Positions 13,818 to 16,238 of a DNA stretch of 34,324 bases are shown here, one piece after another. Positions within the stretch are counted from its first letter, which is position 1. Every line of letters starts with the position of its first letter. Below the pieces are notes generated by a model. The model did no database searches. It worked only from the letters and a program-made list of their open reading frames with translations, and had not been told where the DNA came from. The stretch is taken from contig JAMCXQ010000028.1 in the NCBI GenBank assembly GCA_023474835.1, positions 1-34,324 of the forward strand, given 5' to 3'. A program made the translations under genes and the position numbers. This DNA comes from Patescibacteria group bacterium (lineage in GTDB: Bacteria; Patescibacteriota; Minisyncoccia; Minisyncoccales; CG1-02-41-26).

Positions 13818-14339
13818 ATGAACCAATTTTTTAAAAAAGTTAAAAACAAAGTATTCATAATCACATTGTTTACAATAATAATGGGAGTGGCTTTTATTGT
13901 AGCAAATGTTTTAATTTTCGTTTTTTTATTTATTGGTAAAGAATACCAAACGGCAATAGAACTGATAAAATTTTTATGTTGGCCCGGTCTAATTTTTGTT
14001 ATTTTCGTGGTGGTTATTAATAGTGCTTATTTGAGAGAACTTTTTTCGTACCTTTTTCTTTCTATGGAGGAATTTAATTTTTTCTCTATCAAGGGAAAAA
14101 TAGAAAATGTCCGCGAGGTTATAGAAAGGAAAATTGAAGAAGGTATCCAAAAATTAGAAAAAAATAAACAAATAGAAACTTTAAAAAGAGGGGTTATCGA
14201 ACTTATAGAACAAAAGGGGGAATCCGCTCAAGAATCGGATAGGTTAAAAAAAATAGTGGATTCACAAGAAAAAGTTATAAACAAGCAAGAAGAATTAATA
14301 AAATTATTAAATGAAATTGTTAAAAATGGGAACAGGTAA
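13818..14339 (+). CDS. Small membrane protein, two predicted TM segments plus coiled coil, upstream of and overlapping the predicted endonuclease
   Basis: Hydrophobic stretches IITLFTIIMGVAFIVANVLIFVFLFI and FLCWPGLIFVIFVVVI, then a charged heptad-like C-terminus; overlaps the next ORF by 29 nt. Confidence 0.6.
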   Translation: MNQFFKKVKNKVFIITLFTIIMGVAFIVANVLIFVFLFIGKEYQTAIELIKFLCWPGLIFVIFVVVINSAYLRELFSYLFLSMEEFNFFSIKGKIENVREVIERKIEEGIQKLEKNKQIETLKRGVIELIEQKGESAQESDRLKKIVDSQEKVINKQEELIKLLNEIVKNGNR

Positions 14340-15042
14340 AAAAATAAATTCAATTATCAAGGCCTACGAGCACTTGACAAAAGGCATAGAAAAAACAGCT
14401 AAAACTGGCACTGACGGCAGGGCTTACGGCGGGATTATCCGGGCCGGCAAGGGCGAAATGGTTGAAAGTATAGCCGCAGAAATTGTGAAAATAGCCTGGG
14501 AAGAATTAAGGCAAAAGCCGGAACGATTGACAATAGACCGAAAGAAAATAAAACTGCCAATCAAAAAGAGCTATGTTGAGAAAATAAAAAGCCCGGGAAT
14601 AAGGCAATATATTTCAGAAAATATTAACAAGTATTATTTCCCGTTGGGTGTGGATTTGCATATTTCTATTGACGGGGAATTTGTGTTGGCAATGGAATGC
14701 AAGGCCTATGCTGAAAACGCAATGCTCAAAAGAATTTTAGTTGATTTTTCATTATTCCACGAAATTTATCCGAAAGCCGGCTTTATTTTGTTTCAGCTTG
14801 AGAGCCAGCTCGGCGGAGATTATTCAGGGTTAAAAAATATTACTTTCGGCAGTCCGTCAACGCACACTCTTTTGTCTTATTTTAATATTGACCTAAATAT
14901 TATCACCCTGTTGAAAGGTGAAAGAAAAGTGGACAAACCAATCCATAAAAAACAATACTATAAACCATTACAAAAAGAAGCTTTATTATTTGCAATAAAG
15001 CATATCAAAAGCATGCTACGCAAGCACGCAAAATCAAAATAA
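14311..15042 (+). CDS. Predicted type II restriction endonuclease (PD-(D/E)XK-like)
   Basis: GVDLHISIDGEFVLAMECKAYAE fits D-Xn-E-X-K; convergent with and overlapping a DNA methyltransferase. Alternative start ATG at 14326. Confidence 0.65.
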   Translation: MKLLKMGTGKKINSIIKAYEHLTKGIEKTAKTGTDGRAYGGIIRAGKGEMVESIAAEIVKIAWEELRQKPERLTIDRKKIKLPIKKSYVEKIKSPGIRQYISENINKYYFPLGVDLHISIDGEFVLAMECKAYAENAMLKRILVDFSLFHEIYPKAGFILFQLESQLGGDYSGLKNITFGSPSTHTLLSYFNIDLNIITLLKGERKVDKPIHKKQYYKPLQKEALLFAIKHIKSMLRKHAKSK

Positions 15043-16161
15043 AGTTTCTGACAGCCTGGTTTCGGCAGTTTTGCAATACTCGGGCGCTATATCAATGCCT
15101 AAATATCTGCGATTCAATTTTTTAGCGACAGAGGTGGTTGTTCCAACTCCGTTGAAAGGGTCAAGTACAAAGTCGTTTTTGTAACTGAAAAGCTTTAACA
15201 GACGGGTTACCAATTCCTCGGGAAACATTGCCGGATGTTCGTATTTTTTCATATTTCTTTCAGGAGCAATGGACCATTTGGCATAAACCCATTTTTTGAA
15301 CTCCTCGCCGGCTATGTCAATATTGACTGATTCGCCGGTTTTTTTATGGGTTTCTTTGCAAAAAACCTCGACAAATTCCCAAGAATATTTTAAGTAGGGC
15401 ATACTCGGGCTTTTCCAGCTGCCCCAAGCCGTATATTTGCAGTTATAATTATTTTTTTCCCAAATAATTTCCCCTTTCCATAAAAGACCTAAATTCAATA
15501 ACTGCTTGGATATTAAATGATGGGTTGGAATATAGTCAGAAAATAACGGCTGGATATTAACGCAAAACCTGCCACCCGGTTTCAAAACTCTTACGCATTC
15601 CCGCCATATTTCGTTTAATTGATAAAAATAATCAGCCCATTTTTTTGTATCGTTTTTATTGTCGTTTTTATAATCCAAACCGAAATTATATGGCGGGGAG
15701 GTAATTATGATATCAATGGAATTATCAGGCGCTTCACTCAAAACTTCTTTGCTGTCTCCACAAACAATCTTGTTCACAAATTTTTCAGGGTCTTGGGTAT
15801 CTGGTTTTATTGTCACAGAATAATTGAAATTTTTCGTGCCTCCGCGAAATCGTTCTTTTATCGTCCTGTTTTTTACCTTCCGTTCTTTTTCAATATTATC
15901 GTTATCATACTGATAAGATAAAGGGGGGTATACGGGAACGAAAGATAACGGCGCGTCTTGGATAATCGAAATGCCGCGCGCTTTATAGTTTTCTTTTGCC
16001 AAATAGCCCTTTTCGGCCAATGTTTTGATTTGCTGGTGCACGGTTGATTTGGCAGATAATCCAAAATGTTTTTTAATTTCTTCAACCGAAGGGGCGTAGC
16101 CGTTCTTTTCTATGAATTTTGTGATATAATTAAAATATAATTTTTGTTTTTTTGTGAGCAT
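15034..16161 (-). CDS. DNA methyltransferase (beta-class, TSPPY) with N-terminal LexA-type winged-helix domain
   Basis: N-term LTKKQKLYFNYITKFIEKNGYAPSVEEIKKHFGLSAKSTVHQQIKTLAEKGYLAKE is LexA-DBD-like; IIITSPPYNFGLDYKN (motif IV) precedes FVLDPFNGVGTTTSVAKKLNRRYLGIDI (motif I). Confidence 0.88.
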   Translation of the reverse strand: MLTKKQKLYFNYITKFIEKNGYAPSVEEIKKHFGLSAKSTVHQQIKTLAEKGYLAKENYKARGISIIQDAPLSFVPVYPPLSYQYDNDNIEKERKVKNRTIKERFRGGTKNFNYSVTIKPDTQDPEKFVNKIVCGDSKEVLSEAPDNSIDIIITSPPYNFGLDYKNDNKNDTKKWADYFYQLNEIWRECVRVLKPGGRFCVNIQPLFSDYIPTHHLISKQLLNLGLLWKGEIIWEKNNYNCKYTAWGSWKSPSMPYLKYSWEFVEVFCKETHKKTGESVNIDIAGEEFKKWVYAKWSIAPERNMKKYEHPAMFPEELVTRLLKLFSYKNDFVLDPFNGVGTTTSVAKKLNRRYLGIDIAPEYCKTAETRLSETLF

Positions 16162-16184: not shown

Positions 16185-16213
16185 ATTATACCGAACATTT
16201 TGCGAACATTCAA
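16185..16213 (-). promoter_or_regulatory. Methyltransferase promoter TTGAAT-N17-TATAAT with tandem CGAACATT sites in the spacer
   Basis: On the minus strand TTGAAT gttcgcaaaatgttcgg TATAAT; CGAACATT at 16192-16199 and 16203-16210 on the plus strand. Confidence 0.75.
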
Positions 16214-16238
16214 ACCCTAGATTGTGGATAACTTTTTT

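Follow-up and report, generated by a model that had tools for sequence, protein, structure and literature searches.

M.SsoII, M.Ecl18kI and M.EcoRII are dual-function methyltransferase repressors (PMC3874152, PMC12707154, PMC3978073). M.SsoII is a C5 methyltransferase whose helix-turn-helix (HTH) has been modelled on the phage 434 repressor and whose site is taken to be an inverted repeat. Direct-repeat LexA boxes have been described as GTTC-N7-GTTC in Alphaproteobacteria (PMC8565304) and also in Balneolaeota (PMC7739468), and the latter paper cites a 2017 study of Patescibacteria for boxes of this type (Sanchez-Osuna et al., 10.1111/1462-2920.13826). The circuit considered here is therefore known, and so are direct-repeat LexA boxes, probably also in Patescibacteria, judging from that citation. 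The stretch analysed here (the window; 34,324 nucleotides from a Patescibacteria group bacterium) encodes a LexA-type DNA-binding domain fused to a DNA methyltransferase, and the promoter of this gene contains a tandem GTTCG repeat (Table 1). We propose, with a probability of roughly 0.85, that the repeat is the operator of the fusion's own LexA-type domain, through which the methyltransferase would repress its own gene.

Table 1. Features of the methyltransferase locus (window coordinates).
Feature	Position	Strand	Basis and remarks
Type II restriction endonuclease, convergent with the methyltransferase gene, 9-nt overlap	14311..15042	+	PADLOC PDLC03499 REase_II, E 4.7e-87
LexA-DNA-binding-domain/DNA methyltransferase fusion, 375 aa, without S24	15034..16161	-	Family profile searches
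Beta-class N4/N6 DNA methyltransferase domain, residues 149-367	15061..15717	-	PF01555, E 1.7e-41
LexA-type winged-HTH domain, residues 2-63	15973..16158	-	PF01726, E 1.5e-15; aligns to E. coli LexA 1lea/3jso
Codon of Q43, proposed specificity-determining recognition-helix residue	16033..16035	-	Aligns with E. coli LexA Glu45
-10 hexamer TATAAT	16185..16190	-	Sequence; abuts proximal half-site
Proximal putative operator half-site GTTCGG	16191..16196	-	Sequence; fits E/Q class of the half-site code (TTCGG)
Distal putative operator half-site GTTCGC	16202..16207	-	11 bp from proximal; 1 base off class consensus TTCGG
-35 hexamer TTGAAT	16208..16213	-	Sequence; spacer to -10 is 17 bp

The window protein shares with LexA repressors the winged HTH (PF01726) and with the dual-function enzymes the placement of an HTH N-terminal to the methyltransferase in a single protein (PF01726 at 2-63, PF01555 at 149-367). 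The C-terminal S24 autocleavage/dimerisation domain (PF00717) is absent from it and present in its closest orthologues. Whole-protein matches are closest in Patescibacteria MAGs (Zambryskibacteria, Jorgensenbacteria), from whose names the class name Paceibacteria, used below, is inferred. By methyltransferase, the nearest orthologues (L015, L018 and L175; 66-70% identical) are 500-aa fusions of a LexA domain, Peptidase_S24 and N6_N4_Mtase. On sequence comparison, the window protein is a descendant or a sister of such triple fusions that has lost S24. Since S24 is the damage-sensing part, the loop of the window protein should be insensitive to SOS. In the three orthologues, the -10 TATAAT lies only about 6 nt before the ATG (L015:1259, L018:3001, L175:1587), so that the mRNA would have next to no leader.

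Read directly, the minus strand of the window from 16213 to 16185 is TTGAAT-gttcgcaaaatgttcgg-TATAAT, a promoter with a 17-bp spacer and with 23 nt between its end and the ATG (16161). Inside it lies GTTCG-N6-GTTCG with a period of 11 bp; on the plus strand, CGAACATT occurs at 16192-16199 and 16203-16210, the second copy sharing 3 nt with the -35. The letters, coordinates, spacer, overlap and period given in an earlier sequence-only reading were all exact on re-reading. That reading had, however, assigned the half-site to the Gram-positive LexA box. The geometry is instead that of the direct-repeat box GTTC-N7-GTTC of Alphaproteobacteria (PMC8565304, PMC3091678), which GTTCgcaaaatGTTC at 16207-16193 (minus strand) fits exactly; the window site does not match the palindrome CGAAC-N4-GTTCG, both copies pointing in the same direction. 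The 8-mer CGAACATT alone is unremarkable, with 3 occurrences in the window against 1.6 expected. The window genome, a 647-kb assembly in 35 contigs, was covered by pattern searches. The tandem 19-mer occurs in it only once, even when 2 mismatches are allowed, and TTCGS-N6-TTCGS has 5 further matches, 4 of them within ORFs and none with a downstream gene start. With no second promoter carrying TTCGS-N6-TTCGS in the genome, the searches do not point to control of an SOS gene set by the fusion.

A perfect DnaA-box-like TTATCCACA is also found upstream of the -35, at 16223-16231 (minus strand). It stands in this place in 99 of the 152 LexA-family promoters described below, in tandem and non-tandem types alike, and in 10 of 99 control upstreams, though an intergenic region may be shared in some of these cases. 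The window genome contains 16 copies, several near other promoters, and 3 of the reversed pattern.

To compare the promoters of homologues, as the sequence-only reading had suggested, LexA-domain genes were gathered by protein homology only, with their promoters disregarded. The sample comprises 152 distinct LexA-domain proteins from Paceibacteria, 95 of which are at least 340 aa long. Among the first 58 genes, an exact 6-mer repeat at lag 11 was observed in 46 promoters, while every other lag was observed in 3-10, with about 4.4 expected. In the full sample the tandem is kept: TTC-N8-TTC (lag 11) lies upstream of 97/152 genes and in 7/99 control upstream regions of other genes at the same loci (7%). 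Other TTC spacings occur in 3-11 of the 152 promoters, save lag 7 with 28, an excess that we attribute to a TTC within many of the spacers. LexA-size proteins with the helices NQSxxD or RSVTQYL lack TTC repeats at lag 11 (non-tandem loci include L230, L232, L235, L240, L251, L255 and L244, L259, L260, L263), and these proteins therefore probably use a different operator.

The bases that follow TTC vary with residue x of the recognition helix S-T-[AVI]-H-x-[HY], which corresponds to position 43 of the window protein. Overall, E or Q is paired with TTCGG, F, Y or H with TTCTA or TTCGA, and K with TTCGC. In the proximal copy, GG accompanies E in 20/22 and Q in 21/22 cases, TA accompanies F in 34/34 and GC accompanies K in 4/4; Y is found with 8 TA and 1 GA, and H with 4 TA and 2 GA. 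The distal copy, which is clear of the -10, gives GG for E in 22/22 and for Q in 17/22, 26 TA and 8 GA for F, and GC for K in 3/4. Mutual information with the half-site peaks at position 43 among the 66 positions of the domain, both in all 97 tandem sequences and in 25 representatives whose identity outside the helix is below 60%. The aligned residue of E. coli LexA, Glu45, is among those that contact DNA (PMC3091678). The base before TTC also varies: all 6 proteins with K or R just before S-T (AKST in the window) have G there in both copies, and V in this position mostly goes with T. Two points count against the proposal: in the window protein the helix has VHQQ instead of the usual HxH, and the distal half-site, TTCGC, differs by one base from the class consensus.

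In a tree of about 200 residues, from which the helix columns had been left out, 13 residue-class changes and 13 half-site-class changes fall on the same 13 branches (13/13), with P of about 3e-20, a value that is indicative only, because the classes of residue and half-site were grouped after the data had been seen; the ungrouped tables carry the same message. A single amino acid of a LexA-type helix is thereby linked to the DNA letters read, in a manner legible from sequence and replicated in many natural pairs. Since the tandem recurs upstream of homologues and its letters change together with the recognition helix of the encoded protein, the gene's own LexA-type domain, as the sequence-only reading had it, is the most likely binder of the repeats. 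The site overlaps the methyltransferase promoter, as in dual-function enzymes, and on sequence and co-variation we regard methyltransferase autoregulation as well supported.

The repeats could also be bound by the cell's own LexA, in which case the methyltransferase would be an ordinary SOS gene; LexA boxes do occur in promoters, and the window genome encodes a full-length LexA of 197 aa. Nevertheless, this LexA has the helix INHY (H class) and TTCTA-N6-TTCTA in its own promoter, whereas the methyltransferase, with VHQQ and Q43, has TTCGC/TTCGG, which fits its own Q. The same holds more widely: of 7 genomes with tandem-type paralogues of differing residue class, 6, the window genome among them, match throughout, each promoter suiting the helix of its own protein; in the seventh (G199), the site of one Q-class gene is mixed, TTCGG/TTCGC. 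Such paralogue-specific half-sites favour self-recognition, and we therefore rejected the host LexA as an unlikely binder, given the different half-site classes of the two promoters.

We infer from the arrangement how the fusion would bind, in which direction it would regulate and what purpose this could serve. Two fusion molecules would sit head-to-tail on the same helical face, between the -35 and -10, and the bound fusion would block RNA polymerase, so that the methyltransferase would repress its own gene. In a cell that the system has newly entered, where no repressor is present, the methyltransferase would be made at the full rate and protect the host DNA; as it accumulates, expression would be throttled by negative feedback. 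The sign of regulation is not legible from sequence alone, and a bound fusion might instead activate the gene or mainly bring the methyltransferase to the locus. We consider this improbable, since the sites lie between the -35 and -10, overlapping the former and touching the latter, which is a polymerase-blocking position. LexA-type regulators situated between these elements are known as repressors. On the side of this alternative, repression in EcoRII depends on the methylation state (PMC12707154). Weakest is the idea that the repeats reflect chance or promoter strength and have no dedicated binder, which the ordinary frequency of the 8-mer would allow, but which is very improbable in view of the conserved spacing and of half-sites that change along with the recognition helix.

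The sequence-only reading had connected the head-to-tail order with the lack of the LexA dimerisation domain. This explanation was not borne out. The tandem is found in 82/91 S24-containing fusions, in 11 LexA-size S24-containing proteins and at the full-length LexA of the window genome, and direct repeats are bound by published LexA proteins (PMC8565304, PMC7739468). Since S24-containing relatives share the tandem, the order is not a consequence of S24 loss, which we thus ruled out as its cause. Four fusions are without S24 (the window protein, L165, L207 and L174); the TTC tandem is present in three of them, and L174 has TTAGG repeats, also with an 11-bp lag.

The methyltransferase gene lies beside a restriction endonuclease gene, as is typical of type II restriction-modification systems. 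The sequence-only reading had overlooked this partner, and likewise the orthologues with S24 and the one-residue code. PADLOC alone identified the family of the 14311-15042 product, which gave no match in Pfam or NCBIfam and none in the PDB. Homologues of this enzyme adjoin related methyltransferases in many phyla, and are convergent with them in L015 and L018. Since the convergent, overlapping gene encodes a type II restriction enzyme, the window locus is, as far as its sequence can tell, a type II restriction-modification system with a putative dual-function methyltransferase/repressor. Overlapping the start of the restriction enzyme gene is a 173-aa ORF (13818-14339, plus strand) with no family match, judged by eye to contain two probable transmembrane segments and to end in a coiled-coil-like tail. 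In L015, a 107-aa XRE-type HTH ORF (L015:3371-3694, minus strand) lies directly upstream of the restriction enzyme gene and is possibly a C-protein-like controller.

In records from other phyla, most matches leave out the LexA domain and start near residue 60-126 of the window protein (L016 was inspected), so that this domain seems to have been added in the Patescibacteria copies of the methyltransferase. The LexA-S24 module is also joined to C5 (L142), N6/Eco57I (L127) and D12 (L166) methyltransferases; typing of the 95 fusions by motifs alone left 51 unsorted. Among phage and plasmid records, none covers 80% of a LexA-S24-methyltransferase fusion. The cyanophages S-CAM3, S-RIM32 and S-H9-2 have a related methyltransferase without the LexA module (about 55% identity), and the match coincides with features whose annotations read DNA methylase and type II restriction enzyme.

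These observations suggest a broader model, to which we give even odds. Paceibacteria would have repeatedly joined the complete LexA module (DNA-binding domain and S24 autoprotease) to DNA methyltransferases from at least four families (N6_N4, C5, N6/Eco57I and D12), each fusion repressing only itself through its own tandem and the one-residue code. DNA damage would cut the fusion and free the gene, and the resulting methylation burst would amount to a transcriptional restriction alleviation; the window protein would be a derivative without the damage sensor that has kept plain autorepression. SOS-triggered self-cleavage and a methylation burst could be a natural extension of the autorepression model to the S24-containing majority. 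In this widespread group, DNA damage and DNA methylation could be coupled. Although these bacteria are hard to culture, the code and the fusions are testable with short oligonucleotides and purified domains.

In the literature searched, the scope of which did not extend to the Patescibacteria 2017 study, we found no description of LexA-type methyltransferase fusions or of the helix/half-site code. Compared with the nearest orthologues, the window locus has the same LexA-type domain, methyltransferase, convergent restriction enzyme and tandem at the same place; L015, L018 and L175 keep S24, belong to the F class and have TTCGA/TTCTA-type sites, whereas the window protein is without S24 and of the Q class. 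With the published direct-repeat LexA boxes it shares the domain family and the 11-bp head-to-tail geometry. There, however, full LexA binds and SOS genes are controlled, whereas the putative binder in the window is an S24-less methyltransferase fusion and the only site found is in its own promoter. As in SsoII, Ecl18kI and EcoRII, an N-terminal HTH is attached to a type II methyltransferase, the site overlaps the enzyme's own promoter, and negative feedback is expected. Unlike M.SsoII, the window protein is not a C5 methyltransferase with a 434-like HTH; it combines a LexA-type winged HTH with an N4/N6 beta-class enzyme and a direct-repeat site, and would represent the same kind of circuit in another protein family.
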